From contig NZ_JAODIW010000005.1 of the NCBI RefSeq assembly GCF_026586625.1, positions 62,001 through 126,000 on the forward strand: a stretch of DNA of 64,000 nucleotides. The letters run 5' to 3'. Shown one piece after another: positions 1 to 49,486 of this stretch. The number at the start of each line of letters is the position of its first letter. Position 1 is the stretch's first letter. Source of the DNA: Halobium salinum (GTDB lineage Archaea > Halobacteriota > Halobacteria > Halobacteriales > Haloferacaceae). A model generated the notes under the pieces. It saw nothing but the letters and a program-made list of their open reading frames with translations, was not told where the DNA came from and searched no databases. A program made the translations under genes and the position numbers.

Positions 1-327
1 GTCGAGGTCGAGGACGGGAATCGCGTCGGCGCCGACCGCGTCGGTCCCGGCGCCGTCCACGGCGCCTCCGGACCCGCCCCGCGCCGCCCCGAAGTCGTCG
101 ACGGCACGGACCGCGAGTTCGCTCCCGCAGACGCGGACCGCGTCGCGCAGCACGTCGGCGTCGCCGACCACGACGACGTCCGCGCGGTCTCTCAGCTCCG
201 GGTACGCCTTCACGATCACCTCGCTACCGATACCTGCCGGGTCGCCCATCGTCACGCCGACCAGCGGCCGGCGAGCGCCCGACCCGTCGGCGGCCGCGGC
301 GTCGTCGCTGTCACGGGAGTCACGCAT
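1..327 (-). CDS. pdxA: PdxA-family 4-phospho-sugar-acid dehydrogenase (N-terminal part, cut by window edge)
   Basis: About 109 N-terminal residues are visible; the rest lies beyond the left edge. The start is ATG at 327, followed by an Asp/Ala-rich leader and then the PdxA signature GVTMGDPAGIGSEV (PdxA usually has GPE where this has GSE). PdxA enzymes are NAD-dependent oxidative decarboxylases acting on 4-phosphohydroxythreonine or, for the PdxA2 branch, on 4-phospho-erythronate/threonate. It overlaps the stop of the upstream DUF1537 kinase gene by 8 bp, so the pair is one operon. That pairing (kinase plus PdxA2) is the known arrangement for four-carbon acid sugar catabolism, which I therefore prefer over vitamin B6 synthesis. 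The family call is firm; the substrate is inferred. Confidence 0.85.
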   Translation of the reverse strand, partial: MRDSRDSDDAAAADGSGARRPLVGVTMGDPAGIGSEVIVKAYPELRDRADVVVVGDADVLRDAVRVCGSELAVRAVDDFGAARGGSGGAVDGAGTDAVGADAIPVLDLD

Positions 328-1687
328 CGTCAGTCACCTCACCGCCGAGGTAGTTAGCGATTACGCCGTCGCCGCCGAACGCGCCCGCTTTCGTCACGAG
401 CGGCGTCCCGTCCGCGACGCCGCCGCGGACCAGCCCGACCGGGATGCCGGCGCCGAGTTCTCGACCGACCGGGGCGACGGCCGCCGCGTCGAGCGCGTCG
501 AGGGTCGCGCGGGCGACGGCACCGCCGGTGAGCAGCGAGTCGGTCGGCGGCGGGTCGGCGTCTCGCCACACCGCCGCGGCCGTCGCCGCCAGCGCCGTCG
601 CCACTCGTTCCCCGACGCCGTCCGGCGGAACGCCGGCCGCCCGTCCCGCCTCGCGCGCGGCCGTCACGTCGTCCCGGTCCGTCGCGGCCGTGACGAGCGC
701 CTGTCCGGTCGCTTCGAGCCGGTCGAGGCAGGCGACCGCCGCGTCGGTCGCCGCCGCCTCGGGTTCTCGAACCGCGGCCGCGGCGTCGAGTCGTACGACC
801 GCGTCGTCCGGGACCCGGGCCACCTGGTCGAGCGTCGCCGCCGCCACGCTGCCGACGACCGCGAGCGCACGCCGGTCGGCCGCCGTCGCCGGGTCGAGGG
901 TCGGAGGTCGCGACCCGTCGTCGGGGAGCGGAACGTGCCGGGCCAACCCGCCGCTCCCGGCGAACACGACCGAACCGGGGTCGGCGCCGTCGGCCAGCGC
1001 GGCGAGATGGTCGTCGTGGACGGCGTCGCAGGCGACGAGCGTGCCGGCCGCCGGCCTCGACGACCCCGACGACCTCCCGGCGTCGAGCGCCGCGAGAGCG
1101 CCGAGGCGCTCCGCGACGGCGTCCGGACCGCGGGCGACGGTGGCCGACGCGATACGGGGGACGGACGCTCGCTCCCGCCCACCCTCCGACTCCCCCAGCA
1201 GACGGGGGAGGTACGACGTCGCCGGGGCCTTCGCGTCGTCCCCGGCGGCGGTCGCCGTCACGGGCACGCCGTCGACGAGGTGATGACCCTCGGCCGTGAG
1301 CCGGCCGTTGGCGGGGAACGCCGGGGCGACGAGGGCGAGCGGGCGGTCCGCGGCCGCCCGCGCCGCCGTAACCTCGGCGGCGACGTTCCCCCGGAGCGTC
1401 GAGTCGACCTTCTTGTAGACCACCGCGTCCGGGTCGGCGGCGACGGTTTCGCGCACGACGGTAGCCACCGACTCCCGCGCCGCGTCGGCGTCGGCGTACC
1501 GGGAGTCGGTGTCGACCACCGTCACCGAGGCATCGTCGTCCGACTGGTCGGCCGAGGCCTCCGCCGGGCCGTCCCCATCGTCACCACCCACCTGGACCGT
1601 CGTCCGACAGCCACGGGCGGCGAACTCGTGGCCAGTGTCCATCGCCCCCGTCAGGTCGTCCGCGACGACCAACACCCGTCGAGTCAT
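320..1687 (-). CDS. DUF1537 four-carbon acid sugar kinase (OtnK/DtnK family)
   Basis: A 455-residue protein of normal length for the family. The N-terminal domain begins VLVVADDLTGAMDTG (residues about 5-19), the substrate-binding signature of DUF1537 kinases. The C-terminal nucleotide-binding domain ends with a Gly-rich TKAGAFGGDGVI motif near residues 430-446. Family members phosphorylate erythronate, threonate or related acids at O4 in the cytoplasm, giving the substrate for PdxA2, whose gene follows with an 8-bp overlap. The middle (about residues 150-230) is Ala/Arg-rich and weakly conserved. The ATG at 1687 is the natural start. Erythronate versus threonate cannot be separated from sequence. 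Confidence 0.88.
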   Translation of the reverse strand: MTRRVLVVADDLTGAMDTGHEFAARGCRTTVQVGGDDGDGPAEASADQSDDDASVTVVDTDSRYADADAARESVATVVRETVAADPDAVVYKKVDSTLRGNVAAEVTAARAAADRPLALVAPAFPANGRLTAEGHHLVDGVPVTATAAGDDAKAPATSYLPRLLGESEGGRERASVPRIASATVARGPDAVAERLGALAALDAGRSSGSSRPAAGTLVACDAVHDDHLAALADGADPGSVVFAGSGGLARHVPLPDDGSRPPTLDPATAADRRALAVVGSVAAATLDQVARVPDDAVVRLDAAAAVREPEAAATDAAVACLDRLEATGQALVTAATDRDDVTAAREAGRAAGVPPDGVGERVATALAATAAAVWRDADPPPTDSLLTGGAVARATLDALDAAAVAPVGRELGAGIPVGLVRGGVADGTPLVTKAGAFGGDGVIANYLGGEVTDDA

Positions 1688-18160: not shown

Positions 18161-19336
18161 TCACTCGTAGACGTGGACGCTGCCGGTGGCGTTCTCCTCG
18201 ATGTACTCCCAGTCGTAGTCGACGCCGAGGCCCGGCCCGTCGGGGACCGGCACCGTCCCCTCGTCGTCGATGGCGTCGATCATGTCCGAGTAGCCGCCGC
18301 GGTAGACGGGTGGCTGAGTGTTCGGGCAGTCGGGGTGGACCAAGGCGAGTTCGTAGTAGTTCGCGTTCCGGGTCGCGGCGATGCAGTGGCGCTGGGCCGG
18401 CCCTGGAGCGTGGAACTCCACGTCGAGGCCGAACGCCTCGGTCATGCGCGCGACCTTCATCGCGCCGGTGATACCCGCGTCGTACTCGGGGTCGGCGCGG
18501 ACGAAGTCGGTGGCGTCGTTGGCGACGAAGTCGGCGTGGGGTTCGAGTCCCCGGACGTGCTCGGTCTGGAGAATCGGCGTGTCGAGCTGTTCCCGGAGCT
18601 TGCGGTGGCCGTGCTGGGAGATGCCGCCGTCGCGGTAGGGGTCCTCGTACCAGAAGAACCCCTGTTCGTCACACGCGCGACCCACGGTCAGCGCGTCGCC
18701 GAACGTCTCGTACTCGCAGGCGGGGTCGAGCATCAGGTCCATCTCGTCGCCGACGGCCTCGCCGACGGCGTGGACCGCCGCCACCTCCCGGGAGACATCG
18801 CGGGCGTCGTCGCCGCCGCCCCAGCCGTGGATCTTGAACCCGCCGTACCCCATCTCCAAACAGTCCTCCGCGAAGTCGGCGAACGCCTCGGGGGAGTCGA
18901 GTCCGCCCGCGTCGTCGCCGTGGTACGTCGACGCGTACGCGGGGATGCGCTCGCGGTAGGTGCCGAGCAGTTCGTGGATGGGCGCGTCGTAGTACTTCCC
19001 CGCGAAGTCCCACAGCGCGATGTCGACGGGGCCCATCCCCATCCGGTCGTACTTCCGGAGGGCACGTTTGATTTCGCTCCAGTGGCGCTCCCGGTGGAGC
19101 GGGTTCCGACCGATCAAGTAGTCGGCGAACGTGTTGATCTGGGCGGCCGCCGGGGAGTTCCCGCCGACGTACTCCCCGGTTATCCCCTCGTCCGTGTGAA
19201 TCTGCAGGGCGAACAGTTTCCGCGTCGTGGTCTCGCCGGGGGCGTACACGAGGTTGAACCCGTGCTCGTCCGTCCCGACGTCCTCCAGCGGGTACTCGAA
19301 CTCCGTACTCTCGATGCGCGTAATCTCCGGGCCCAT
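18161..19336 (-). CDS. Enolase-superfamily sugar-acid dehydratase, K-x-H type
   Basis: A 391-residue MR/MLE-family protein. Metal-ligand strands read LMLDPACEY, FWYEDPYRD and LQTEHVRG, and a distal His lies in VEFHAPGPAQ. The Lys strand is FKIHGWGGG, so the second Lys of the usual K-x-K is His. It closely resembles the protein at 62742 (shared ERHWSE, KRALR, HELLGTY and YASTY segments), so the two are a paralogous pair. A longer open frame runs to 19528, but ATG 19336 has a minus-strand TATA-like box (TTTTATCA, 19358-19365) at leaderless distance. It is first in an operon with the Gfo/Idh gene. Confidence 0.85.
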   Translation of the reverse strand: MGPEITRIESTEFEYPLEDVGTDEHGFNLVYAPGETTTRKLFALQIHTDEGITGEYVGGNSPAAAQINTFADYLIGRNPLHRERHWSEIKRALRKYDRMGMGPVDIALWDFAGKYYDAPIHELLGTYRERIPAYASTYHGDDAGGLDSPEAFADFAEDCLEMGYGGFKIHGWGGGDDARDVSREVAAVHAVGEAVGDEMDLMLDPACEYETFGDALTVGRACDEQGFFWYEDPYRDGGISQHGHRKLREQLDTPILQTEHVRGLEPHADFVANDATDFVRADPEYDAGITGAMKVARMTEAFGLDVEFHAPGPAQRHCIAATRNANYYELALVHPDCPNTQPPVYRGGYSDMIDAIDDEGTVPVPDGPGLGVDYDWEYIEENATGSVHVYE

Positions 19337-30303: not shown

Positions 30304-31446
30304 TCAGCCGTCGACCCGGTACCGCTCGACGGCGTCGGGCTCGAGCTCGACGCCGAGCCCCGGCCCCTCGGGGACGGTCACCCGGCCCTCGTCGTCCGCC
30401 TCGATGGGATCGGTGGCCAGCTCCTCCCGGAGCGGGTTCGCGGAGCGGTCGAACTCGAGCGGCGGGTCGCCGGGGAGCGTCGCCAGCAGTTGGAGGCTCG
30501 CCGCGAGCGCGACCGGCGTCCCCCAGACGTGCGGGACGAGCGGGACGCCGGCGCGCCGAGTCCCGTCGGCGACTTCGCGGGCCGGCGTCAGCCCGCCGAC
30601 GTTACAGACGTCGGGCTGGACAATGTCGAGCGCCCCGCGAGAGAGCAGGCGGTCGAGGGCCGCCGGTCCGTGGCACTCGCCGCCGGCGACCGGCACGTCG
30701 AGTGTCCGCGAGAGGCGTTCGTACCCGTCGTGGTCGGTGGGTCGGACGGGCTCTTCGAACCAGCACACGTCGAGGGCGCCGAGTTCGCGGCCGATGCGGC
30801 GGGCGGTCGGACGGTCGTACGCGTAGTTGGCGTCGACCATCAGGTCGACGTCGGGGCCGACCCGGTCGCGGACCCGCCGGACGAGTTCGAGGTCCTCGTC
30901 GGGACCGTGACCGAGCAGCGCGAGTCCGACCTTGAGCTTCACCCGTCCGAAGGCGTCGGCGTTGGCGGTCGCCTCGTCGCAGATGGACGCGTACTGCTCC
31001 TCGAGGTCGTCCGTCGGCCGGAAGTAGTGGCCGGTGGCGTAGGCGTCGACCGCGTCGCGCTCGCGGCCGCCGAGCAGCGTCGCGACGGGCACGCCGAGGA
31101 GCGTCCCCTTCAGGTCCCACAGCGCGAGGTCGAGGCCGCTGAGCGCCGGGAGCGGGACGGTCGACTGGTAGGCCGCGCGGGCGCGGTCGTACAGGTCGCG
31201 GTGGAGGCGCTCGACGTCGAGCGGCGACTCGCCGACCAGCGCCGGCCCGAGCAGCGACGCGACGGTCTCCCTGGTGCCGGCGACCGGCCCCCAGCACTCC
31301 CCCCAGCCGACCGTCCCGTCGTCGGCCTCGATTCGGACCAGCACGGCGCTCCGCGTCTCGACCCACGCCTGCGCGTAGCCGAACGGCTCCTCGACGGGTG
31401 CCTCGACGCCGACGGCCTCGACGTTCTCGATGCTGACGTCTTGCAT
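30304..31446 (-). CDS. Enolase-superfamily sugar-acid dehydratase/cycloisomerase, K-x-K
   Basis: A 380-residue MR/MLE protein. The capping domain includes VGWGECWGP. Barrel motifs are VKLKVGLAL (catalytic Lys pair), MVDANYAY, WFEEPVRP and GGECHGP for metal, and a distal His in VPHVWGTP. The C-terminal ending VPEGPGLGVELE is shared by most of the family members in this window. A minus-strand TATA-like box near 31470-31477 supports ATG 31446. It sits with the SDR, cupin and tartronate-semialdehyde-reductase-like genes. Confidence 0.86.
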   Translation of the reverse strand: MQDVSIENVEAVGVEAPVEEPFGYAQAWVETRSAVLVRIEADDGTVGWGECWGPVAGTRETVASLLGPALVGESPLDVERLHRDLYDRARAAYQSTVPLPALSGLDLALWDLKGTLLGVPVATLLGGRERDAVDAYATGHYFRPTDDLEEQYASICDEATANADAFGRVKLKVGLALLGHGPDEDLELVRRVRDRVGPDVDLMVDANYAYDRPTARRIGRELGALDVCWFEEPVRPTDHDGYERLSRTLDVPVAGGECHGPAALDRLLSRGALDIVQPDVCNVGGLTPAREVADGTRRAGVPLVPHVWGTPVALAASLQLLATLPGDPPLEFDRSANPLREELATDPIEADDEGRVTVPEGPGLGVELEPDAVERYRVDG

Positions 31447-31559: not shown

Positions 31560-32480
31560 TCACTCCTCGACCCGCGCCTCCTCGCCTGCCATCGCCTCCA
31601 GTACTTTGATGACGGCCGAGTGGTCGTCCCGGCCGTACCCCATCGTCTCCATCGCCTTGTACTGCTCGTGGACGACAGACGTGGCCGGCATCGGGGCGCC
31701 GTACTCCTCGCCCGCACGGGTGGCGATTCGGAGGTCCTTGTACTGGTACGCGGCGAAGAAGCCGGGGTCGAAGTTCCCCTCGATGACCCGTGGGGCGCGC
31801 GCGTCGAGCGCCCAGCAGCCCGCCGCACCGCCGCTGACGGCGTCGAGGACGGCCTCCAGGTCGGCGCCGGCGCGCTTCGCGAACAGCAACGCCTCGCTCA
31901 CGGCCTGCAGGGTGGAGCCGACGATGATCTGGTTCGCGGCCTTGGTCACCTGCCCGGCCCCCGTCGGTCCGCAGTGGGTGACCGTCTCGCCCATGACCTC
32001 GAACAACGCCTCGGCCGCAGCGAACGTCGACTCGTCGCCGCCGACCATGATAGACAGCGTCGCCTCGACGGCGCCCTCCTCCCCGCCGCTGATCGGCGCG
32101 TCGAGGAAGTCAGCGCCTGCGGCTTCCAGTTCCTCGGCGATACGCTCGGTCGCGACCGGCGAGATGGTCGACATGTCGACCACGGTCGACCCTTCGTCGA
32201 CACCGTCGACGACCGGGTCGTCCGCTCCGTCGTGCTCTCCCTCGCCAAGCACGACCGACTCGACGACCGGCGTGTCGGGGAGGACGGTGATTACCACGTC
32301 CGACTCCCGCGCGACCTCGGCCGGCGACGACGCCGGGGTCGCACCCGCGTCGGCGAGGCGGTCGACCGGCCCGTCGGAGCGGTTGTGAGCGACGACCGGG
32401 TACCCCGCGTCGAGTACGTTCTTCGCCATCGGTTCGCCCATGATGCCGAGGCCGACGAAGCCCACGGTCTGTGAGGACAT
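31560..32480 (-). CDS. 2-hydroxy-3-oxopropionate reductase / 3-hydroxyisobutyrate dehydrogenase family
   Basis: A 306-residue beta-hydroxyacid dehydrogenase. The nucleotide motif GFVGLGIMGEPMAKN is at about 6-20, the substrate loop DAPISGGEEGA near 125-135 and catalytic Lys in GAGQVTKAANQ near 175-185. Tartronate semialdehyde reductase (GarR/GlxR) is a good candidate because an HpcH-type aldolase in the window could release tartronate semialdehyde. 3-hydroxyisobutyrate dehydrogenase is the alternative. ATG 32480 is chosen over 32507, since a minus-strand TATA-like GTTATTTG overlaps the latter. Confidence 0.85.
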   Translation of the reverse strand: MSSQTVGFVGLGIMGEPMAKNVLDAGYPVVAHNRSDGPVDRLADAGATPASSPAEVARESDVVITVLPDTPVVESVVLGEGEHDGADDPVVDGVDEGSTVVDMSTISPVATERIAEELEAAGADFLDAPISGGEEGAVEATLSIMVGGDESTFAAAEALFEVMGETVTHCGPTGAGQVTKAANQIIVGSTLQAVSEALLFAKRAGADLEAVLDAVSGGAAGCWALDARAPRVIEGNFDPGFFAAYQYKDLRIATRAGEEYGAPMPATSVVHEQYKAMETMGYGRDDHSAVIKVLEAMAGEEARVEE

Positions 32481-32629: not shown

Positions 32630-34324
32630 ATGGCAGCCGACATCGATGGTGAGGCGGGGCTCGGAGTCGACGAGCGAGGGGAGTGGACCCTCCGCGACGC
32701 CGAGGCGCGCGAGTACGTCAGGGGTGCCGCCCGCGCGACGGTCTCGCTGGTCGAGTCGACGTACGGACCGCGCGGGTTGGAGAAACTGGTCGAGACGGCG
32801 AACCACCAGGGCGTACCGGAGACGGTACGGGCCGGCGACGCCGGTCGCCTGTTCGACGCCGTCCAACGCGGTGGAGGGTTCACCCACCCAGTCTCCGCGC
32901 TGTTCGTCGACGCCGTCGACGGGATGCAGCGCGGGCTGAGCGACGGGACGACCGCCGCGACCCTGCTCGGAGGCGCACTGCTCGACGAGGGGTTCGACCT
33001 CGTGGAGGAGGGGGTCGCGCCGGGGAGCGTCGTCGTGGGGTACGCGATGGCTCGGGCCCGGGCCGGCGAGACGCTCGACGCCCTCGCCCGACCGGTCGCC
33101 GTCGACGACGAGGCGACGCTCAGAGCGGTCGCGGAGACGACGATGACCGCCGACCTCGACCCGGCCGTCCGCCGACGGGACGCCGAACGGGTCGTCGACG
33201 CCGTCCGCGAGGTGGCGGCCGCGGACGAGCGCGGCTGGGTCGACACGGACGACGTGAAGGTGCTCGCCGCGCGGGAAGCGGGCGAGGAGTTCCACCGAGG
33301 GCTCGTCCTGTCGCGCCCCGCCGACGCCGGGCCGAACGGGGCCGGCGTCCCCGAGCCGCTGACCGACGCGACCGTGGCGGTGCTCGACGACGACGTCGAC
33401 TTCGAGTCGACCGCGAGCAGCTTCGGGGGGGACGCCGGCGCCGGCGTTCGCCTCGACTCCGCCGACGCCGTCGCCGACTACCGCCGCGGCCTCGAGGGAC
33501 GCATCGAGTCGACGGCGACCGGGCTCGCCGAGACGGGCGTCGACGTGCTGGTCTGCATGGAGAAGCTCGACGCGGACGTCGCCCGGGCGTTCGAGCGCGC
33601 GGGAGTCGCCGTCGTCGACAAGGCCACGTACCCGAAAGGCGACATCTATCGTCTCGCGCGCGCGACCGGCGCGACGGTCACCTCGAACGTCGCCGACCTC
33701 GGCCCCGACCGACTGGGCCGCGCCGGACGGGTCGTGGAGCGGCGGGTCGGCGACGAGGTGTGGACCGCGTTCGAGGACTGCTCCGGGCCCCTCTACACCA
33801 TCGTCGCGGACGCGGACACCCCCGAGGCGGCCAACCGGCGCCGCGAGTCCATCGAGGACGCCCTGGAGACGACGGCCACGGCGGCGATGGACGGGCAGGT
33901 CCTTCCAGGTGCCTGCGCGCCCGCCGCGGCCGTCGCGGCCGCGCTCCGCGAGTACGCCCCGAGCGTCAGCGGGACGGAACAGCTCGCTATCGAGGCGTTC
34001 GCGGACGCGCTCGACCGACTCCCGTACGCCCTCGCGGCCAACGCCGGTCTCGACCCGATCGACGCCCTGACCCGCCTCCGGAGCGCCCACAGCGGCGGCA
34101 ACCCTGGCGGTGACGCCCCAAGCGAGCCGTCGGCGTTGGGCGTCGACCTCGACACCGGCGCGCCCGTCGACGCCTGGGAGGCGGGCGTCGTCGAGCCGCG
34201 GCGCGTGTTCTCGCAGGCGGTCGAGACTGGCGGCGCCGTCGTTGAGCAACTGCTCACGATAGACGCCGTACTCTACCCGAACGTCGACCTCCCGGGGTAC
34301 ACGCCACGTACGGAACACGAGTAG
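32630..34324 (+). CDS. Divergent TCP-1/cpn60 (thermosome-like) chaperonin, paralogue 1
   Basis: A 564-residue relative of group II chaperonin subunits. The equatorial motif TLGPKG appears as STYGPRGLEKLV (about 43-54). The ATPase loop GDGTT appears as LSDGTTAATLLGGALL (about 103-118), keeping Asp. The NDGAT loop is not recognisable (AGDAGRLF), and the C-terminal GGGA motif is reduced to LPGACAP. NAGLDPIDAL is well kept. The apical region includes VCMEKLDADVARAFERAGV. True haloarchaeal thermosomes keep these motifs intact, so this is a specialised or degenerate paralogue. It faces a second divergent chaperonin, convergent, 52 bp apart. Confidence 0.82.
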   Translation: MAADIDGEAGLGVDERGEWTLRDAEAREYVRGAARATVSLVESTYGPRGLEKLVETANHQGVPETVRAGDAGRLFDAVQRGGGFTHPVSALFVDAVDGMQRGLSDGTTAATLLGGALLDEGFDLVEEGVAPGSVVVGYAMARARAGETLDALARPVAVDDEATLRAVAETTMTADLDPAVRRRDAERVVDAVREVAAADERGWVDTDDVKVLAAREAGEEFHRGLVLSRPADAGPNGAGVPEPLTDATVAVLDDDVDFESTASSFGGDAGAGVRLDSADAVADYRRGLEGRIESTATGLAETGVDVLVCMEKLDADVARAFERAGVAVVDKATYPKGDIYRLARATGATVTSNVADLGPDRLGRAGRVVERRVGDEVWTAFEDCSGPLYTIVADADTPEAANRRRESIEDALETTATAAMDGQVLPGACAPAAAVAAALREYAPSVSGTEQLAIEAFADALDRLPYALAANAGLDPIDALTRLRSAHSGGNPGGDAPSEPSALGVDLDTGAPVDAWEAGVVEPRRVFSQAVETGGAVVEQLLTIDAVLYPNVDLPGYTPRTEHE

Positions 34325-34376
34325 GGTCGGAAAACGGGAACGGCGAGGGCGATGCGGACGGTCGGGGGTCCGTGAC

Positions 34377-35993
34377 TCAGTCCGCGTTCGGTCTGCCGGC
34401 CCCGCCTGCTGGACCGGGACCCATCCCCTCCTCGCCCTCCGCGTCGTCGCCGAGGTCGGTCGCGGACAGGCGCTCGTCGATCCGCACCAGCTGGACCGCG
34501 AGGTCCGTCGCCGCCGTCAGCGTCGCGCGCTTGACCGGCAGCGGGTCGACGATGGGGTCCTCGGCGAGGACGTCGCGGGTCGTCCCGGCGAGCGCGTCGA
34601 CGCCGACCGCGTCGCGATCCTCCGAGCGGGCGACGCGAAGGCGGATTTCGGCCTCCCACGCGTCCATCCCCGCGGTCCGGCCGAGTGCGCGGGGGACCGT
34701 CATCAGCGCGTCGCCGAACGCCTCGGCGGCGAGCTGCGACCGGTCGGGTATCGACCGGGCCTCCCGCCGGACCGCCTCGGCCGCGGTCGCCTCCGCGGCG
34801 CCGCCGCCGGGGACGACCCGACCGTCGCGGACGGCGGCCGCTGCCGCCGCGACCGCCGACTCGACCGAGCGCTCGAACGCCGTCGCGCTCCGCGGGTCGG
34901 GCGCGCGACAGAACAGCGTGTAGACGGCCTCGCCAGCCCCGTCGGTGACGAACGTCATGTCGCGGCCCGCCTTCCGTTCGACCCGAACGGCCGCGTCGCC
35001 CAGGGTCTCCGCGGTGACCTGTTCGAGCGTGGGGACGACCGTCGCGCCGGTTGCCCGGGCGACCCGACGAAGTTCGTCGGCGTCTAGGCGGTCGACCCCG
35101 AGAACGCCGCGTGCGGCGAGCTCGCTCTCGACGCGCTCGTTTATCGCCTGTTCGGTGAACACGGCGCCGCAGCCGGCCTCGACTGCGGCGTCGAGCTGCT
35201 CGGCGAACGCGGACCGTTCGTAGTCGGCGACGGCCTCGCGCTCCTCGAAGGAGTCGACGTCGAGTTCGACGCGTCGCGAGACGCGTCCCAACTCGGTGCC
35301 GACGGTCGGGACGTCGACGGTCGAAGAGAGGACGGCGACCCCCCGGCGGTCGGGCGTCCGGGGCATGGCCGGCGTCGTCAGGTTGCGGTCGAGGACCACA
35401 CCCTCCACCAACTCCGTCTCGGCGGCCGCCCCGCCGGTGCGGGAGACGACCTCGATCGCGTCCCGGGCGCCGGGACCGACGTCACCAGTTCCGACCTCGT
35501 CGCCGAGCCGCTCCAGGGCCGCGGCGACCTGGTCTGCGACGGCGCCCCGGGCGGACGGGTCGCGTGTCCCCGTGAGCGCGGTCCGGGCAACCGCCGCCGG
35601 CCCGTACTCGTCGAGCGGACGCGCCGTGCGGTCGAGCGTCGCGAGCGCCCTCTCCAGTCCGGTTCGGTACCCCTGTTCGATCGCGGTGGGGTGGAGCCCC
35701 CGTTCGCGGAGGCGCTCGGCCTCGGTCAGCAGCGCGCCGACGAGGGCGACGACGCTTCCGGCGCCGTCGCCGTGGCGTTCGCGGAACCCGGTCGCCGTCG
35801 ACGAGAGGAGCGTGACGGCCGGGTCGTCCACGTCGAGGCTGTCCAGCAGTTCGGTCGACGAGGCGGTGGTCTTGACGTTGCCGTCGGCGCCGACGAGTAA
35901 CTTGTTGGCACCGAACGGTCCGAGCGCGGTACGGATGACGTCGCACACCGTCCGAACCTCCCCGACGAGTCCGACGTCGCTCTCGTCTGCCAT
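34377..35993 (-). CDS. Divergent TCP-1/cpn60 (thermosome-like) chaperonin, paralogue 2
   Basis: A 538-residue group II chaperonin relative. RTALGPFGANKLLV at about 21-34 matches the equatorial motif. NDGAT is replaced by TASST (43-47), GDG is kept as HGDGAGSVVALVGALL (74-89), and the C-terminal VPGGGAAEA motif is intact. The tail ends in a Gly/Pro/Met-rich stretch like other chaperonins. Compared with paralogue 1, a different subset of ATPase motifs is preserved. It might form mixed rings with paralogue 1 or with the cell's thermosome. ATG 35993 is the natural start. Confidence 0.82.
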   Translation of the reverse strand: MADESDVGLVGEVRTVCDVIRTALGPFGANKLLVGADGNVKTTASSTELLDSLDVDDPAVTLLSSTATGFRERHGDGAGSVVALVGALLTEAERLRERGLHPTAIEQGYRTGLERALATLDRTARPLDEYGPAAVARTALTGTRDPSARGAVADQVAAALERLGDEVGTGDVGPGARDAIEVVSRTGGAAAETELVEGVVLDRNLTTPAMPRTPDRRGVAVLSSTVDVPTVGTELGRVSRRVELDVDSFEEREAVADYERSAFAEQLDAAVEAGCGAVFTEQAINERVESELAARGVLGVDRLDADELRRVARATGATVVPTLEQVTAETLGDAAVRVERKAGRDMTFVTDGAGEAVYTLFCRAPDPRSATAFERSVESAVAAAAAAVRDGRVVPGGGAAEATAAEAVRREARSIPDRSQLAAEAFGDALMTVPRALGRTAGMDAWEAEIRLRVARSEDRDAVGVDALAGTTRDVLAEDPIVDPLPVKRATLTAATDLAVQLVRIDERLSATDLGDDAEGEEGMGPGPAGGAGRPNAD

Positions 35994-36093
35994 GGTGGGC
36001 CATGGCCAGCGGGCGCCTATATATCTACCGCGACGAGTGTTCGCCCGATAGTAGGTTGTATTCTGATAGGTGGTCGGTGAAAGCGGGAGTAAA

Positions 36094-36100
36094 CATTATA
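36094..36100 (+). promoter_or_regulatory. TATA-like box for second ABC system
   Basis: CATTATA lies 28-34 bp upstream of ATG 36128, in a locally A/T-rich stretch, consistent with a strong leaderless promoter. Confidence 0.6.
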
Positions 36101-36127
36101 GTACAATGGTGATGATTAGCGTACGGT

Positions 36128-37720
36128 ATGTCAACAGACGGCAGGAGTGAGAAGACAGCCGAGAGTACCGACGGGACGGGCACCGACCGTTCCCGACGTG
36201 ACTTCGTCAAGGCGACCACGGCGGCCGCGTCCGCCGGTGCGCTGGGCGCCCTGGCCGGCTGTACGGGTGACGGTGGCGACGGTGGCAACGATACCGGCGG
36301 CGACACCGGTGGCGACGGGGACGGCAATGACTCCGGTGGTGGCGGCGGTGGCGGCGGTGGTGGCGGCAGCGAGTCCGTCGAAGTCCAGTTCCTGTCGGCC
36401 CAGGCGGCCGAGAATTCCTCGATCCGGAGCCACTTCCAGGAGTCGATGCAGGACTTCCAGGAGAAGTCCGGCAACGTCTCCGTCAGCCTGCAGACGGCGT
36501 CCTACGGGGACATGAAGAACAAGCTGGCCTCGACCGTCCAGTCCGGGAACCCGCCGGCGCTCGCAGAGTCCGGTTCGGCAGGGCTCCAGTTCTTCCTCAA
36601 CGACCAACTCGTCGACCACACGAAGTTCTTCGAGGGGTCAGACACCTTCCCGGACGACTTCACGGTCCCGAACAAGGAGGTCGCGAACTTCCGCGACCAG
36701 TGGTGGTCGGCCGGCGCGATCCGCCACACCAGCAGCAACCTCGGAATCCGACCGAAGATTTTCAGCCAGGTCGGCATCCAGAACCCGATGGAGGAGCTGA
36801 ACACCTGGAGCAAGTTCCACGACGCCATCGTGCAGATCGACGAGGAGATGGACACCATCGCCTACGAGGAGACGGGCGTCGCCGGCGACTTGGAATCCTA
36901 CTGGGGGCAGGCCCGGACCGCATACACCGGCGGGACGGACCCCTGGATCCGCGGGAACCCCGACGACCCGGACGTGGTCATCGCCAACTCCGACATGGAG
37001 GAGGACCGCCGGCGGACCGACGGGATGATCAAGGCCTGCATTAAGCGGGCCAACGAGTTCAGCAGCGACGAGGCCGCCTCGCGCGGCGACGAGGAGATCC
37101 CGTCGCTGATGCTCACCGGCCGGGTCGCCTCGTTCACCTACGCGACGCCGACCGCCCGTCGGTGGTTCGCGGTCAACGAGGACGCGACGATCGGCTGGGC
37201 CGACGGCGAAGGGGACTTCATGCTCCTGCCGGACCCCAAGCTCGACGCCGAGTACGGGAGCAAGATCGGGGTCAGCGACCTCGAGGGACTCGAGGGCGAA
37301 CACGGTGGCCACGTCTGGGGGCTCGAACAGGCCCACACCGTGTTCAGCGGCGTGAGCAACGCCAAGCAGCAGGGCGCCTGGGAGCTGTCCCAGTACCTGT
37401 TCAGCGACGACGACTTCGTGCTTCCGGCGTGGGGTGAGCACTACCAGTCCATTCCGGGTCTCGCCACGAAGATGGACCCGCTCCTCAACGAGTACCCCGA
37501 CCTGCCCCAGAACTTCCAGCGGGCGATCGAGAACCAGAACCAGTACGCCGAGCAGTACGCGAACACGGGCGGGGCCTGGGACCTGCGTGCGACCGACCCC
37601 ATCCGGTGGACCGACATCAACGAGACGATCAGTCAGGCCATCGCCGGCCAGCACAGCGTCGACGAGACCCCCGGTCTGGTCCGCGAGCGTGTGCTGACCC
37701 GAATCGAAGAGTCGGGCTGA
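36128..37720 (+). CDS. Sugar ABC transporter substrate-binding lipoprotein (second system)
   Basis: A 530-residue secreted binding protein. The twin-arginine motif SRRDFVK lies at 22-28 with lipobox LAGC at Cys45; the n-region of 20 residues is unusually long and Thr/Glu-rich. A Gly/Asp linker runs to about residue 83. The family 1 binding domain starts at VEVQFLSAQAAENSSI. The ligand pocket region keeps many Trp and Tyr residues, as for oligosaccharides. It is the first gene of the second CUT1 importer and has its own promoter; it shares little obvious identity with the first system's binding protein. Confidence 0.88.
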   Translation: MSTDGRSEKTAESTDGTGTDRSRRDFVKATTAAASAGALGALAGCTGDGGDGGNDTGGDTGGDGDGNDSGGGGGGGGGGGSESVEVQFLSAQAAENSSIRSHFQESMQDFQEKSGNVSVSLQTASYGDMKNKLASTVQSGNPPALAESGSAGLQFFLNDQLVDHTKFFEGSDTFPDDFTVPNKEVANFRDQWWSAGAIRHTSSNLGIRPKIFSQVGIQNPMEELNTWSKFHDAIVQIDEEMDTIAYEETGVAGDLESYWGQARTAYTGGTDPWIRGNPDDPDVVIANSDMEEDRRRTDGMIKACIKRANEFSSDEAASRGDEEIPSLMLTGRVASFTYATPTARRWFAVNEDATIGWADGEGDFMLLPDPKLDAEYGSKIGVSDLEGLEGEHGGHVWGLEQAHTVFSGVSNAKQQGAWELSQYLFSDDDFVLPAWGEHYQSIPGLATKMDPLLNEYPDLPQNFQRAIENQNQYAEQYANTGGAWDLRATDPIRWTDINETISQAIAGQHSVDETPGLVRERVLTRIEESG

Positions 37721-37807: not shown

Positions 37808-38755
37808 ATGGCACAGGAACAGGGTCGGACAGCCGACCAGATACGCGAACGGTACGGTATCGGGGAGCGAACGCTCACGGATCGGATCAAGGACAACTGG
37901 GTGGGATACCTGTTCATCATACCCACCTTCATCGCCTTCACCGGCCTGTTCTACTTCCCCATCGCCCGGGGGGTGTTCATGACGTTCACGAACGCCTCGC
38001 TGGGCGTCACGGGGGAGTTCATCGGGCTCGACAACTACGCCTGGCTCCTGACGAACGACCTGTTCTTCTACTCGTTCGGCTGGACCATCGTGTTCGTCTT
38101 CGGGACCACGTTCACGCAGCTCGGGTTAGGTGTCGTCGCCGCGCTCCTGCTGAACGAACTCCGCGAGGTCGCGAAGGACTGGGTCGGCGTGTTGATCATG
38201 TCGCCGTACTTCTCGGCGCCGCTGGCCGGGGGTGTCATCTGGATGTGGTTCCTGGACTCCAACTTCGGGTTCGTTCCGAAGTTGTTCGGTCTCTTCGGCT
38301 TGACAGCCCCGTCGTTCCTCGCCGGGGACTTCTGGCCGTTCGTCTCGCTGATCGTCGCACAGACGTGGCACGACTACGCCTACTCGGCGATCATCTACGC
38401 CGCGGCGATCGTGAGCATCCCGAGCGAGCAGTACGAGGCCGCGGCGCTGTCGGGCGCCGGGCGACTCCGCCGGTTCCGGGACGTCACGCTGCCGCATCTG
38501 CTCATCCCGACGATCGTCATCCTCTCGCTGCGGACGGCCTGGAACATCGCGGAGTTCTCCCAGCCGTTCGCCCTGACCGGCGGCGGACCCGGGACGCAGA
38601 CGATGCTGATGAGCATCCTCACGTACCGCGTCGCGTTCGTCAACACGAACTTCGCGCGGGCGTACACGATCGGGATGGCGATGGTCGTGCTGTCGATGTC
38701 GGCGGCCGTCATCTACGTCAAGGCAATCGACCAGGAGGACGACCTCTACGTCTGA
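37808..38755 (+). CDS. Sugar ABC transporter permease (MalF/UgpA-like, second system)
   Basis: A 315-residue protein with six predicted spans. The EAA loop reads YEAAALSGAGRLRRF then DVTLPHLL (about 210-233). The N-terminus (about 35 residues) is charged and cytoplasmic. It forms the channel with the product of 38768, whose gene starts 12 bp after this stop. A separate TATA-like element in the 87-bp gap from the binding-protein gene allows different expression levels of the two. Confidence 0.9.
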   Translation: MAQEQGRTADQIRERYGIGERTLTDRIKDNWVGYLFIIPTFIAFTGLFYFPIARGVFMTFTNASLGVTGEFIGLDNYAWLLTNDLFFYSFGWTIVFVFGTTFTQLGLGVVAALLLNELREVAKDWVGVLIMSPYFSAPLAGGVIWMWFLDSNFGFVPKLFGLFGLTAPSFLAGDFWPFVSLIVAQTWHDYAYSAIIYAAAIVSIPSEQYEAAALSGAGRLRRFRDVTLPHLLIPTIVILSLRTAWNIAEFSQPFALTGGGPGTQTMLMSILTYRVAFVNTNFARAYTIGMAMVVLSMSAAVIYVKAIDQEDDLYV

Positions 38756-38767
38756 GGTACTACTACC

Positions 38768-39607
38768 ATGTTAAACCCAACCAAACGAGACCGGGCGCTG
38801 CTGTACGCCGGAATCATCGCGTTCGCGCTGTTCGCGGTGGTTCCGTACTACTGGATCCTTCGGACGTCGATCCTGACCAACTTCGCGGCGATCAGTCCCG
38901 ACACCGGGTTCCTCCCGCTGGGGGAGCTGACCCTCGACCCGTACTTCGCCGTGTGGGCCGACTTCGCGTTCCCGCTGTACTTCAGAAACAGCATCATCGT
39001 CGCGTTCGGAGCGACGCTCATCTCGCTGTTCTTCGCCATTCCGGGCGCGTACGCGTTCGCGCGACTCGACTTCCCGGGTCGACAGGCGCTGTTCTACACC
39101 GCCGTGTTCACCATCATGTTCCCCTGGATCGTGCTGACGATTCCGGTGTACGAGGTGTTCTACTTCCTCAACCTGGTGAACACGCTGCCGGGCATCGTCA
39201 TCGCCCTGTCGATATTCGTGCTCCCCCAGAACATCTGGCTGTTACAGGGGTTCTTCCGACAGGGGATTCCCGAGAACATCGAGGAGGCGGCACTTATCGA
39301 CGGCCACAACGAGCTGACCGCGTTCATGCGCATCGTCCTGCCACTGAGCGCGCCCGCGATCGGCGCTGCCGCGCTGTTCGCGTTCCTCACCGCGTGGAAC
39401 AACTTCCTGTGGGTGTTCGTGCTCACGAGCGACGAGGGCGTCCGAACGGCGACGGTCGCCATCCACTACATCCTCGGCAGCGACGTGCTGCGTGAGTGGA
39501 ACACGCTGATGGCCTCGGTGGTGCTGCTCGTGGCGCCGCCGGTGATCTTCTACGGCCTCTCCCGGCGTTACCTCGGAGAGGGGCTCGGGGGGTCCCCGGG
39601 CGGGTGA
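38768..39607 (+). CDS. Sugar ABC transporter permease (MalG/UgpE-like, second system)
   Basis: A 279-residue protein with six predicted spans. The EAA loop reads IEEAALIDGHNELTAF then RIVLPLSAP (about 174-198). It is shorter at the N-terminus than the first-system counterpart and begins directly before the first span (ALLYAGIIAFALFAVVPYYW). It is co-transcribed with 37808. Confidence 0.9.
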   Translation: MLNPTKRDRALLYAGIIAFALFAVVPYYWILRTSILTNFAAISPDTGFLPLGELTLDPYFAVWADFAFPLYFRNSIIVAFGATLISLFFAIPGAYAFARLDFPGRQALFYTAVFTIMFPWIVLTIPVYEVFYFLNLVNTLPGIVIALSIFVLPQNIWLLQGFFRQGIPENIEEAALIDGHNELTAFMRIVLPLSAPAIGAAALFAFLTAWNNFLWVFVLTSDEGVRTATVAIHYILGSDVLREWNTLMASVVLLVAPPVIFYGLSRRYLGEGLGGSPGG

Positions 39608-39699: not shown

Positions 39700-40866
39700 A
39701 TGGCACAACTCGAACTCGACAAAGTCACCAAGGTGTTCGACGACTCGTCGGGCACCATCGTCGCCGTCGAAGAGCTCGACCTGGACATCGACGACGGGGA
39801 GTTCGTCGTCTTCGTCGGCCCCTCGGGCTGCGGGAAGTCGACGACGCTGCGGATGGTCTCCGGACTGGAGACCATCACGGACGGCGAGATTCGACTCGGG
39901 GGCGAGCGTATCAACGAACAGTCGCCGAAAGACCGAGACATCGCGATGGTGTTCCAGTCCTACGCGCTCTACCCGCACAAGACCGTTCGTGGGAACATGG
40001 CGTACGGGCTCCAGCTGAGCACCGACCTCGACGACCAGGAGATCAACCGCCGCGTCGAGGAGGCCGCCGACATGATGGGCATCGAGGACCTCCTCGACAA
40101 GAAGCCGGCGTCGCTCTCCGGTGGGCAACAACAGCGCGTCGCGACGGGTCGTGCAATCGTGCGCGAGCCTGCCGTCTTCCTATTCGACGAGCCGCTGTCG
40201 AACCTCGACGCGAAGCTCCGCAAGCACATGCGCACCGAGCTGGCGCGCATCCACTCGGAGGTCGGCATCACGACCATCTACGTGACCCACGACCAGGAGG
40301 AGGCGATGACGATGGCCGACCGAATCGTCATCCTCAACGACGGCCGCCTCCAGCAGGTCGGTACGCCGAAGGAGGTGTACTACGAGCCCAACAACCGGTT
40401 CGTCGCCGACTTCATCGGCTCGCCGTCGATGAACTTCCTCGACGTGAAACTCGACCGCGACGGGACGGGAAGTGGGACGCTCGTCGGCGACGAGGTGAGC
40501 TACAAAGTGTCGGACGGGATGGTCGGGAACCTCGACGACGCCAGCTCCGACCTGGTCCTCGGCGTCCGGCCCGAGAACATCAGAATCGAGGCGGGCGCGC
40601 CGCCCGAGAAGAGCATCGAGGCGACGGTCGACGTCGTCGAGGTGATCGGGTCGGACAACTTCATCTACCTCGACCTGGCGGGACAGGAGTTCCGCGTCCG
40701 CACCCCCTCCGAGATCGAGCCGGAGGAGGATGAGACGGTGACGCTCACCTTCGACGAGGAGAACGTCCACCTGTTCGACGCTCGAACCGGAGATGCGCTC
40801 GTCCACGGGCGCTCCCAGGCGAGCGTGTCGGCGCCCCCGGAGCAGTCAGATACCGCCGCCGACTGA
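39700..40866 (+). CDS. Sugar ABC transporter ATPase (MalK/UgpC-like, second system)
   Basis: A 388-residue ATPase with Walker A GPSGCGKST (40-48), signature LSGGQQQR (about 138-145), Walker B VFLFDEPLSNLDAK and switch region VTHDQEEAMT. A C-terminal OB-fold regulatory domain follows from about residue 235. The Ser/Pro/Ala-rich tail ends SDTAAD. It completes the second importer: binding protein, two permeases, ATPase in order. An own promoter suggests it may serve more than one importer. Confidence 0.9.
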   Translation: MAQLELDKVTKVFDDSSGTIVAVEELDLDIDDGEFVVFVGPSGCGKSTTLRMVSGLETITDGEIRLGGERINEQSPKDRDIAMVFQSYALYPHKTVRGNMAYGLQLSTDLDDQEINRRVEEAADMMGIEDLLDKKPASLSGGQQQRVATGRAIVREPAVFLFDEPLSNLDAKLRKHMRTELARIHSEVGITTIYVTHDQEEAMTMADRIVILNDGRLQQVGTPKEVYYEPNNRFVADFIGSPSMNFLDVKLDRDGTGSGTLVGDEVSYKVSDGMVGNLDDASSDLVLGVRPENIRIEAGAPPEKSIEATVDVVEVIGSDNFIYLDLAGQEFRVRTPSEIEPEEDETVTLTFDEENVHLFDARTGDALVHGRSQASVSAPPEQSDTAAD

Positions 40867-40979: not shown

Positions 40980-42035
40980 ATGGCATACGACATCGCCCTG
41001 ATTCCGGGCGACGGGATCGGTCAGGAGGTCGTAGCGGCCGCGCGACCCGTACTGGACGACGCCGCCACGGACGCCGGCTTCTCGCTCGACTACGAACGCT
41101 TCGACTGGGGGAGCGAGCGCTACCTCGACGAGGGGGCGATGATGCCCGACGACGGGATCGACCGCCTCCGGGACCGCGACGCCATCCTCCTCGGCGCGGT
41201 CGGCCACCCCGACATCCCCGACCACGTGACGCTGCGGGGACTGATGCTCCCCATCCGCAAGCGCTTCAACCAGCAGGTGTGCAGGCGTCCGGCCGTGCTG
41301 TACGAGGGCGTCGAGAGCCCCCTGCGGGGGTACGGGGGTGGCGACATCGACCTCGTCGTCTTCCGGGAGAACACGGAGGGGGAGTACGCGGACGTCGGCG
41401 GGCGCGAACACCGCGGGTTCGACCACGAGGTGGCGATACAGAGCGCGGTGTTCACCCGGCAGGGGACCGAGGACGTCGTCCGCGCGGCGTTCGAGGCCGC
41501 GACCGAGCGCGACGGCAAACTGACGAACGTGACGAAGTCGAACGCCCAGGCCTACGGGATGGTGCTGTGGGACGACGTCGTCGCGGAGGTAGGCGAGGAG
41601 TACCCCGACGTGGAAGTCGAACGCCTGCTCGTCGACGCCGCCTCGATGGACTTCGTCCGCCGGCCCGACGAGTTCGACGTCGTCGTCGCCTCGAACCTCT
41701 TCGGCGACATCCTCACCGACCTCGGCGCCATCGTCACCGGGAGCATGGGGCTCGCTCCCTCCGCGAACGTCAACGTCGAGGGCGACTACCCGTCGATGTT
41801 CGAGCCCGTCCACGGGAGCGCCCCCGACATCGTCGGCCAGGGCGTCGCCAACCCGCTCGCGACCGTCCTCTCCGGGGCGATGCTGTTCGACCACCTCGGC
41901 GAGGAGGCGGCCGGGGAGCGCCTCCGTGGGGCCGTGGCCGACCAACTCGCCGACGGCGACGCCCCTCGGACGCCCGACCTCGGCGGCGACGCCGGCACCG
42001 AGGCGGTCGTGCGGGACCTCAGAGACCGTCTCTGA
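40980..42035 (+). CDS. Tartrate dehydrogenase/decarboxylase or D-malate dehydrogenase family
   Basis: A 351-residue member of the isocitrate/isopropylmalate dehydrogenase fold. It has IPGDGIGQEV near the start, GAVGHPDIPDHVTLRGLMLP (about 73-92) and RENTEGEYADVGG (about 132-144). The catalytic Lys is in VTKSNAQAYGMVLWDD (about 187-202), and SNLFGDILTDLGA is the metal-binding helix. The GHPD-x-PDH-V sequence is characteristic of TtuC/DmlA enzymes, which oxidatively decarboxylate D-malate or tartrate. ATG 40980 fits a T-rich TATA-like box around 40949-40955. It connects four-carbon diacids to pyruvate or glycerate. Confidence 0.84.
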   Translation: MAYDIALIPGDGIGQEVVAAARPVLDDAATDAGFSLDYERFDWGSERYLDEGAMMPDDGIDRLRDRDAILLGAVGHPDIPDHVTLRGLMLPIRKRFNQQVCRRPAVLYEGVESPLRGYGGGDIDLVVFRENTEGEYADVGGREHRGFDHEVAIQSAVFTRQGTEDVVRAAFEAATERDGKLTNVTKSNAQAYGMVLWDDVVAEVGEEYPDVEVERLLVDAASMDFVRRPDEFDVVVASNLFGDILTDLGAIVTGSMGLAPSANVNVEGDYPSMFEPVHGSAPDIVGQGVANPLATVLSGAMLFDHLGEEAAGERLRGAVADQLADGDAPRTPDLGGDAGTEAVVRDLRDRL

Positions 42036-42045: not shown

Positions 42046-43272
42046 ATGGAGCCCCCATCCCGCGACGCGTTCGTCCGTCGGCTCCGCGAGTTGGACCGCG
42101 AGGCGCTCGTCCGGCTCGTCGGGGACCTCGAATCGACCCGGGGCGGGACGGTCGAACGGACGGACGGGGGGTTGCTGGTCGAGCGCCCGTCCGGCGAGCA
42201 CCGCCGGCTCGTGGTGGCGACGACGGCTCGGCGGGCAATCGACATCGTAGCCGGAGCCGATTCCGCCGTCGACGCGGTCGTCCTCGGACGGGCGCTTGAT
42301 GGCGATGCCGACGCCGGCGCCCTCGACGGAACCCGGGTCGTCGGTCCGGACGACCTCCACGCGATGGCGCTGTACGCCGTCGACCGCGAGGACCTCCCGC
42401 CGCTTCTCGACTGCCACTTCGGAAGCGGCGCGTTCGACGACGCCGGCGGAGAGAGACGCTTCGGCGGGTTCGACGTTCGGCGGGTTGTTTCTCGGGCGAG
42501 TGACGTACCGGACCGGCAAGCGACCGGCGCCGCCGCGGGTGTGCTCCTCGCAGTCGTCCTCGCGGCGCTGGTCGTGACCGCCGCACCCGTGACCGTCCCC
42601 TGGACCGGTATCGGGCCCACCGACGCGGGGGGTGCCTCCGACGGTCGGACCGCGACCGAGGCGGAGACGACCGCTGGACGGTCGACGGGGGGACCGACGA
42701 CGAGTCCGGCGGCCCCGGCGGGGGCCCTCGGCGCGACCGACCGGAACGGGAGCGCCTGCCCCCGGCCACCACGGGACGCACATCCCGCGGCCCTCCGGCC
42801 CGAGCCGGTCGCCGTCGCCACCGCCTTCGGGCTCGACGGCTGGACGATTCGGCTGGCGACGAACGTCAGCTCCTTCCGGGGGCCGAACGAGCTCTCGATT
42901 CCCTACCTGCCGGAGGTTCGCCACGAGACGAGCTACCGGAGCCCGTCGGGGGCGACAGTCGTGCTCACGGTCGATCGGTGGCCGGACGACGACCGCGCCG
43001 CCGCGGCGGGCGCCGCGCTGGCCGCCGACCGGACGGTGGCCCTCCGGTGGGGTCGGTACACGATGGGCGTGCTCGTCTACCCGGTATCGGACGGAACGAG
43101 TACGGCGGCAGAACGGTCCGGCAGCGGGCCGGGCGACGCCGACCGCCGAAGGTCGGCAGAGACGGGCCGCCTGTTGCTGTCGCACGCGACGACGCCCGAC
43201 GGCCTGCGGCTGGGAGCGGACTGCGTCGCGGAACTCACGCTCGACGGGAACGCGACCGGTGCGGGAACCTGA
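42046..43272 (+). CDS. Haloarchaeal membrane protein with restriction-endonuclease-like N-terminal domain (uncertain)
   Basis: A 408-residue protein. The N-terminal about 130 residues resemble the Mrr/restriction-endonuclease-like module found in many haloarchaeal hypotheticals (LLVERPSGEHRRLVVATTAR, then a VVGPDDLHAMALYAVDRED end). One hydrophobic span lies at about 168-190 (GVLLAVVLAALVVTAAPV). The C-terminal about 200 residues would be outside the cell, Thr/Ser/Gly-rich, with a single Cys in SACPRPP and another near the end. It begins 10 bp after the tartrate dehydrogenase gene but is probably unrelated to sugar metabolism. The nuclease resemblance is a visual impression only. Confidence 0.55.
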   Translation: MEPPSRDAFVRRLRELDREALVRLVGDLESTRGGTVERTDGGLLVERPSGEHRRLVVATTARRAIDIVAGADSAVDAVVLGRALDGDADAGALDGTRVVGPDDLHAMALYAVDREDLPPLLDCHFGSGAFDDAGGERRFGGFDVRRVVSRASDVPDRQATGAAAGVLLAVVLAALVVTAAPVTVPWTGIGPTDAGGASDGRTATEAETTAGRSTGGPTTSPAAPAGALGATDRNGSACPRPPRDAHPAALRPEPVAVATAFGLDGWTIRLATNVSSFRGPNELSIPYLPEVRHETSYRSPSGATVVLTVDRWPDDDRAAAAGAALAADRTVALRWGRYTMGVLVYPVSDGTSTAAERSGSGPGDADRRRSAETGRLLLSHATTPDGLRLGADCVAELTLDGNATGAGT

Positions 43273-48058: not shown

Positions 48059-48340
48059 ATGGCACACGGTCCCGACGCGGTCCACCGAATCGTCGACGAC
48101 GCGGGGTGGTCGTACCCGGTGTCGGCGGGGCGCCTGGAGCGCAACTACGCGCTCGAGAGCGTGCAGATCGACGAGAAGGGGAACACGATGATGCTCTCGG
48201 AGCTGCTGGTGACGGCCGACGTCGAGCGGTTCGAGGACCGGGCGGACCTGGAACGGAAGCTCGGCCCCGTCTGCGAGGCCGAGAGCGAGGCGCGCAGCCC
48301 GGGCATCGTCGGACGACTGAAGCGGACGTTCCTGGGCTGA
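48059..48340 (+). CDS. Small conserved-looking haloarchaeal protein, unknown function
   Basis: A 93-residue soluble acidic protein; no domain recognised. It starts AHGPDAVHRIVDDAGW after Met and has a central ALESVQIDEKGNTMMLSELL segment, ending in a basic RLKRTFLG. ATG 48059 lies 30 bp after a CTTTATG box (48028-48034), which rules against 48032. A membrane protein gene follows after six bases, so they are likely one operon unrelated to the flanking sugar genes. Confidence 0.65.
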   Translation: MAHGPDAVHRIVDDAGWSYPVSAGRLERNYALESVQIDEKGNTMMLSELLVTADVERFEDRADLERKLGPVCEAESEARSPGIVGRLKRTFLG

Positions 48341-48346: not shown

Positions 48347-49486
48347 ATGGGTGTGAACAAGCTCCGGACACTGAGTTACGGCGGCGGACTGCTGGTCGGG
48401 TTGACCGCCCTCTGGGCGATGGTCAGCTACGGCGGGTCGCCGCTCCGGTTCGTCGGGGGGTTCGCGTTAGCCGTCGTCGCCGCCGGCCTCCCCGCTGCGC
48501 TCGCGCACTCGAAGGCGGGCATCCGCTCGTACTACCGGCGCTACGCCGACGAGGACGCCGGGTTCAGCGAGGAGCTGGGCGCGGTCTACGTCTCGGAGTC
48601 GTCGGTGGACGACGCCTTCGAGGCCCTCGAGTCGGTGTACGCGGCCCTCGAGGGAGACGGCACGTACGACCGCGTCGAGCGCGACGCGTTCGACGAGGGG
48701 CCGGGGCTCACCGTCACCTACAGCGGCTTCCACAACTGCTTCGTCCGGGTGACCGACGGCGGGCGGATGGTCGTCACCGGCGCCTCCGAGAAGACGGGGA
48801 CGCTCGCCGACGCGGTCGCGAGCGCCTGTTCGTTGTCGTTCGACCGGACCCGCGACAACCCCTTCGAGGGGGTCGAACCGATACGGGGCGCCCCGCGCGT
48901 ATTTCTCGGCGTGTTCGTGTTCGCGATTCTCGTCGTGGGCGTCTTCGCCCTCGGCGGCGGGGCGTACCCCTCGGACGCGTACAACCCGGCCGAGCGCACG
49001 GCCCTGATGGTGATAGACGCGAGCGGCGACGTCAACCCCGGGGTGTCGCCGACGGAGACCCAACTTCGGAAGGCGTCGTTCCTCGTCGGCATCGTCGACG
49101 AGGAGGCGACCGAGATTCGGTGGGAGGGGAACGACAGCGCCGAGATAGCCGGTCACGGCAGGCAGGCGCTCGCGGTGTCGAGCGACGCCCGCGACCTGCT
49201 CGCGACGGCCCGCGAGGGGTCGGTTACGCCGGAACAGGTCGAGCGGGCGGACCGCCTCGACGCCGAACTCCGGGAGGCCGAGCGGTCGGTGGCGACGGCG
49301 CTCGCCGAACGGGCCGACAGCGAGGCCCTCTCGGGCGACGTCGCCGCACTCCGGCGGCTCGGCGAGCAACTCCGCACGGACGCGGCCGCCCGGGGCGCGG
49401 CGACCGAAGACGGGAACGCGTCGCCGGCCGCCGCGACGTCCGCAGTGACGACCCCGGGCGGGGTGGGCGCCGCGACGACGGGCTGA
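48347..49486 (+). CDS. Membrane protein of unknown function with coiled C-terminus
   Basis: A 379-residue protein. Two close hydrophobic segments at about 11-55 are followed by a soluble domain (about 60-180), a third span at about 186-207 (VFLGVFVFAILVVGVFAL) and a C-terminal extracytoplasmic or cytoplasmic region. Residues about 290-350 are rich in Ala/Glu/Arg and look helical (DRLDAELREAERSVATALAE), and the end is Ala/Thr/Gly-rich. No family is recognised. It is co-directional and nearly contiguous with the 48059 gene. Confidence 0.65.
   Translation: MGVNKLRTLSYGGGLLVGLTALWAMVSYGGSPLRFVGGFALAVVAAGLPAALAHSKAGIRSYYRRYADEDAGFSEELGAVYVSESSVDDAFEALESVYAALEGDGTYDRVERDAFDEGPGLTVTYSGFHNCFVRVTDGGRMVVTGASEKTGTLADAVASACSLSFDRTRDNPFEGVEPIRGAPRVFLGVFVFAILVVGVFALGGGAYPSDAYNPAERTALMVIDASGDVNPGVSPTETQLRKASFLVGIVDEEATEIRWEGNDSAEIAGHGRQALAVSSDARDLLATAREGSVTPEQVERADRLDAELREAERSVATALAERADSEALSGDVAALRRLGEQLRTDAAARGAATEDGNASPAAATSAVTTPGGVGAATTG

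Follow-up and report, generated by a model that had tools for sequence, protein, structure and literature searches.

Two divergent chaperonin genes and their neighbourhood

The window analysed here is a stretch of 64,000 nucleotides, bases 62001-126000 of a 428-kb contig (C10) in a haloarchaeal genome of 4.46 Mb. Near its middle lie two open, full-length and convergent reading frames for divergent group II chaperonins, referred to below as A and B. The features of the locus are as follows.

320..1687, minus strand: four-carbon acid-sugar kinase (SBD_N/NBD_C, DUF1537 family)
18161..19336, minus strand: enolase-superfamily sugar-acid dehydratase, whose orthologue adjoins A in several genomes
30304..31446, minus strand: enolase-superfamily dehydratase (MR/MLE)
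31560..32480, minus strand: 2-hydroxy-3-oxopropionate reductase / 3-HIBDH-like enzyme, divergent from A
32630..34324, plus strand: A, divergent group II chaperonin, 564 aa (PF00118, alignment, AF2 model)
34325..34376, no strand: 52-bp gap separating the convergent stop codons of A and B (gap measured)
34377..35993, minus strand: B, divergent group II chaperonin, 538 aa (PF00118, alignment, AF2 model)
35994..36127, no strand: 134-bp divergent intergenic region common to B and the binding-protein gene (sequence inspection)
36128..37720, plus strand: substrate-binding protein of the importer, with twin-arginine motif SRRDFV and lipobox LAGC
37808..38755, plus strand: ABC importer permease 1 (homology to annotated permease)
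38768..39607, plus strand: ABC importer permease 2 (homology to annotated permease)
39700..40866, plus strand: ABC importer ATPase (ABC_tran, TOBE_2 and OB_MalK domain matches)
40980..42035, plus strand: tartrate / beta-decarboxylating dehydrogenase, 3' of the importer genes

The original prediction, made from this DNA alone, had located both reading frames correctly, and its tail-to-tail spacing of 52 bp and its assignment of chaperonin length (564 and 538 aa, matching PF00118 end to end) are borne out. What it overlooked is that the contig bears a third divergent paralogue. The genome contains six PF00118 genes, three of them ordinary subunits scoring 529-620 bits and the others A (303 bits), B (337 bits) and C (314 bits), against a family cut-off of 34.3 bits. 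C (C10:205286-206851; L073:9283-10959) is located outside the window, about 108 kb away, in a hydantoinase/oxoprolinase cluster with ABC genes close by.

Neither A nor B is claimed by the NCBIfam thermosome models, for which the alpha, archaeal and beta scores are 283, 281 and 280 bits for A and 303, 308 and 298 bits for B, against cut-offs of 450, 671 and 400 bits. The AF2 models (mean pLDDT 86.4 for A and 86.6 for B) have a predicted group II chaperonin fold, with the equatorial, intermediate and apical arrangement of a thermosome subunit, and align with Mm-cpn and thermosome chains from end to end (query TM 0.76-0.84, best Foldseek E about 1e-36); rows from plasmid records were left out of the structure alignments. 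The N-terminus is altered in both proteins, that of B being short, and in A a conserved C-terminal P-R/Q-T-E-H-D/E replaces the GGM tail.

The gap between A and B ranges from -4 to 104 bp (12/12 genomes measured). In the usual order B is divergent to the binding-protein gene, after which come the genes for two permeases, for the ATPase and often for the tartrate dehydrogenase. Around the importer are found varying sets of genes for enolase-superfamily dehydratases, UxaA-family proteins, four-carbon acid-sugar kinase (relatives of 320..1687 recur in A/B clusters), PdxA-like and 3-HIBDH-like enzymes. The setting of the pair is acid-sugar uptake and breakdown, and its predicted linkage to one metabolic setting is supported. 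TATA-like stretches are present on both sides of the 134-bp region between B and the binding-protein gene, from which the two may be co-regulated.

Phylogenetic position and ATP-site residues

The A clade and the B clade are each monophyletic (100/100), and both fall outside the clade of CCT1-3 and methanogen thermosomes on a branch with 99/99 support, for which the program warns of long branches. Neither is placed within the ordinary thermosome subunits, in agreement with the prediction that they are paralogues divergent beyond these. A quick tree of 94 rows did not join A and B. Holding them as one clade gave a higher likelihood and was not rejected by the AU test (p 0.86), so that A and B may be sister clades, and their description as unrelated was dropped.

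The ATP site was read in register from an alignment of 94 chaperonins, including 29 ordinary subunits, 17 A sequences and 17 B sequences. Three acids were followed: the Asp of NDG, the Asp of GDGT and the general-base Asp, which we take to be D390 of the thermosome and D386 of Mm-cpn. All three are kept in the ordinary subunits (29/29). In A, the NDG Asp is kept in 15/17 orthologue rows (D70 in the window, within 'GDAG'), the GDGT Asp-Gly in 17/17 (D105 and G106) and the general base in 14/17 (D410), while GGG has become GAG, as it has in the ordinary CCT3 of this genome, and GAC in the window. The original prediction had A losing its NDGAT and GGG ATPase signatures; with the hydrolysis acids mostly retained, that description needs correction, and a simple loss of ATPase activity in both proteins was rejected.

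The B sequences present a different picture. The NDG Asp is found in 0/17 (Ser in 15, Ala in 2; S45 in the window) and the D390 equivalent also in 0/17 (Ser in 10, Ala in 5, Gly and Arg in one each; S379 in the window). GDG, including the GDGT Asp, is preserved in 17/17 (window residues 75-77) and the full GGG in 16/17 (396-398). The loss of NDGAT and the retention of GDG and GGG had been correctly predicted for B, but the missing D390 equivalent had escaped notice. C is likewise without the D390 position. The lysine of the MTGK loop, presumably a nucleotide-sensing residue, is absent from A and B and kept in all ordinary subunits. Because of the altered N-terminus and the lack of a lysine after MTG, the assembly and cycle of A and B may differ from those of known rings.

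In Mm-cpn, the D386A variant binds ATP and does not hydrolyse it (PMC5019054). Read against this variant, the loss of the D390 position in B suggests that the pair comprises one hydrolysing and one non-hydrolysing subunit, with A as the candidate for the former role and B for the latter. Judged from its residues alone, B is very probably unable to hydrolyse ATP, and it can probably still bind nucleotide. The archaeal thermosome and the haloarchaeal CCT1-3 are the closest solved relatives of the pair, with the same fold over the whole length and the GDG phosphate loop. In contrast to CCT1-3, A and B fall below the NCBIfam cut-offs for thermosome alpha, beta and archaeal models, stand outside the ordinary-subunit clade, have no GGM tail, have two hydrolysis acids missing on the B side and are both embedded in a transport cluster.

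Distribution of the pair and of the importer's binding protein

A profile for A separates cleanly, with intact A sequences at 666-1024 bits and ordinary subunits at 312 bits or less. Intact A was detected in 17/171 genomes of the family and B in 17/392 genomes sampled across the order; the 11 B genomes outside the family all carry A as well (11/11). Of the 28 genomes that have both genes, 26 show them side by side in convergent orientation, across four GTDB families (17/17 in the family and 9/11 of the further order genomes), and the order of the convergent pair, which the original prediction had proposed to check, is therefore conserved. In the two exceptions both genes are nevertheless present: about 33 kb separates them in G286, and a few kb, with the gene for the binding protein in between, in G275. 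The carriers include Haloplanus ruber, Halegenticoccus soli, Salinigranum salinum, Halogeometricum pallidum, Haloferax sulfurifontis and H. denitrificans, and the pair is also found on plasmids in Haladaptatus and Halomarina.

Reading frames are intact in 28 genomes, and purifying selection is seen in the dN/dS values of A (0.11-0.34) and B (0.11-0.35), with eight orthologue pairs each. Pseudogene-like rates, the adverse outcome named in the original prediction, were looked for and are absent. It is near certain that A and B are group II chaperonins under selection. Distances among A sequences follow those among B sequences in 19 genomes with r=0.97, a correlation that partly reflects shared species history. 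In a member of another GTDB family (G277, locus L218), about 20 kb, including the pair, is roughly 91% identical in nucleotides to the cluster of the window, and this block looks like a recent transfer as a unit. A is split or partial in two genomes (L143 of G165 and L072 of G030), as is C in a third (L159 of G026); these copies are possible recent losses or assembly errors.

The binding protein of the importer has the same distribution as the pair. With cut-offs each fixed ahead of its own search, it is present at E<=1e-90 in exactly 17/171 family genomes, those with intact A, and at E<=1e-70 in exactly 17/392 order genomes, those with B. The agreement persists in genomes with the genes separated, as in G113, in which the binding protein is 25 kb away, and in G286. 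A seeming case of a binding protein unlinked from the pair (G272) was dropped, since the draft contig there is short and B lies at its end. Orthologues of the enolase at 18161 and of the tartrate dehydrogenase are found in 50/171 and 53/171 family genomes respectively, most of them without A. Physical linkage and the transfer of whole blocks account for some of the binding-protein match, and the identical distribution could partly reflect transfers of the kind seen in G277. It is nonetheless likely that the function of the pair is tied to the importer. A Tat motif and a lipobox are present in the binding protein at all 20 linked loci checked, and Tat, the principal export pathway of haloarchaea, transports proteins in folded form (PMC2910488).

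Divergent chaperonins in other clusters and a proposed role of A and B

Other low-scoring haloarchaeal chaperonin genes were chosen by score or annotation, not by context. Each divergent clade among them goes with a single kind of transport or catabolic cluster, which is not true of ordinary subunits. Clade F is beside formamidase at 10/10 haloarchaeal loci (L074, L075, L131, L154, L155, L157, L158, L160, L161 and L169). Clade C occurs with polyamine-type ABC genes and hydantoinase/oxoprolinase or asparaginase, clade G with glycoside hydrolases and a sugar importer, clade H with another importer and dehydrogenases, and clade I with Dpp/Liv-type ABC genes. In the alignment, the D390 position is lost in groups C and H. 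ABC genes are found no more than 7.5 kb away at 40/51 divergent versus 1/20 ordinary loci (Fisher 1e-8, kinship ignored), and binding-protein or Tat-lipoprotein genes are found at 38/51 versus 1/20 (Fisher 6e-8, kinship ignored). Since these values ignore relatedness, the clade-by-clade match of chaperonin to cluster is better evidence than the tests.

Two methanogens have a divergent group II gene in a corrinoid-methyltransferase operon, by a hydantoinase-A-like gene (L216:8913-10211 and L217:8756-10315), which the chaperonin gene overlaps in L217. Three further methanogen matches (L213-L215) were rejected as divergent group II genes, being GroEL beside GroES.

We tentatively favour, with something short of even confidence, a reading in which A and B would form a dedicated, pathway-embedded hetero-chaperonin serving the adjacent carbohydrate-acid importer, whose binding protein they would most likely fold ahead of its export by Tat. 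A would be the subunit that cycles, and B its non-cycling partner in a hetero-oligomer, probably binding nucleotide without hydrolysis. The most likely client would be the substrate-binding protein, a twin-arginine lipoprotein that would fold in the cytosol with A and B and then be exported. As Tat carries folded proteins, the binding protein must fold in the cytosol, which makes it the first choice of client; however, the importer was profiled through this protein alone, and any other component of the importer could be the client instead. Co-assembly of A and B, the choice of client and the part played by B are what we infer from the residues and distributions described above. On balance we think that A and B act together; that the binding protein is their client is plausible, but we hold it with some doubt.

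An alternative that we consider unlikely is that A and B are induced accessory subunits, entering the CCT1/2/3 thermosome during sugar-acid use and changing its client range or ATPase cycle, with B dampening hydrolysis in mixed rings. The original prediction had likewise suggested that such paralogues might cap or regulate the main thermosome rings. Archaeal thermosomes are hetero-oligomeric, and three subunits make varied combinations possible (PMC5983026); the full group II fold is retained in the AF2 models of A and B, and carrier genomes hold the ordinary subunits too. Set against this, the N-terminal region of the ordinary ring contacts is missing or changed in A and B, and their inheritance as a pair with matched divergence suggests a fit to each other. 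Still less probable, in our estimate, is that the two no longer fold proteins and would instead be scaffolds, assembly factors or sensors for the importer or an enzyme complex, as BBS6/MKKS, BBS10 and BBS12 are for the BBSome in animals. These vertebrate proteins are divergent group II paralogues with eroded hydrolysis motifs (PMC2846930), paralleled by the absence of two hydrolysis acids from B and of D390 from C and H. Their origin and setting are separate and eukaryotic, however, and the hydrolysis acids of A, kept in 14-17 of 17 orthologues, are hard to explain in a pure scaffold.

In a further reading the clients would be the sugar-acid enzymes, notably the enolase-superfamily barrels that the original prediction had proposed. 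Several such enzymes are present in most clusters, one of them directly beside A in some genomes, but the enolase and tartrate dehydrogenase orthologues occur mostly without A, the binding protein follows A 17 for 17, and several other divergent clades are found in clusters without enolases. Enolase barrels as main clients were set aside as the leading idea on this distribution (50/171 versus 17/171), and we regard the enzyme-client reading as improbable. The patchy distribution, the plasmid location in several species, the split or partial copies in G165 and G030 and the near-identical block in G277 could also mark A and B as neutral hitch-hikers, decaying chaperonin copies on mobile catabolic islands. 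This is highly improbable given the dN/dS values, the intact frames, the strict pairing and the matching of clade to pathway; the selection test already contradicts it, and it was rejected together with the pseudogene reading.

A and B may belong to a broader pattern, which we put forward with rather less assurance: archaea may several times have evolved private chaperonins, each bound to one uptake or catabolic system, A and B being a heteromeric case with one non-hydrolysing subunit that folds a Tat-exported binding protein. Tat export cannot be the general reason, because the formamidase clade (10/10) and the methanogen corrinoid-methyltransferase clade are linked to soluble enzymes. Textbook accounts present chaperonins as general folding machines, and the pair suggests a chamber dedicated to one uptake system. 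A set of archaeal clades with one cluster apiece would offer a natural experiment in the evolution of client specificity. A and B would provide an asymmetric design, in which one subunit hydrolyses ATP and the other does not, on a scale that can be tested, and a concrete candidate for the folding of many haloarchaeal Tat-exported proteins.

No description of divergent archaeal chaperonins in catabolic clusters was found in the literature searched, which covered few subscription papers. Methanosarcina Hsp60-4 and Hsp60-5 are extra divergent archaeal group II chaperonins and in this resemble A and B; unlike for A and B, we know of no tie to a transport cluster. The GroEL-like chaperonins MimG, PrmG and Smo of bacterial diiron monooxygenase clusters are a further likeness, in that an extra chaperonin gene lies within a cluster, much as A and B are conserved in one transport/catabolic cluster. 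They are group I proteins from single genes with a soluble monooxygenase as client, whereas A and B are a convergent group II pair, one member of which is apparently hydrolysis-dead. These bacterial GroEL-like genes, the nearest idea in print, are reported to be needed in other hosts for the enzyme of their cluster to be active (PMC11057499).

Three other genes of the window have no Pfam or NCBIfam match. Two of them (48059-48340, 93 aa, and 48347-49486, 379 aa) recur together, close to A/B clusters, across many genera, and the third (42046-43272, 408 aa) recurs directly 3' of the importer and tartrate dehydrogenase genes.
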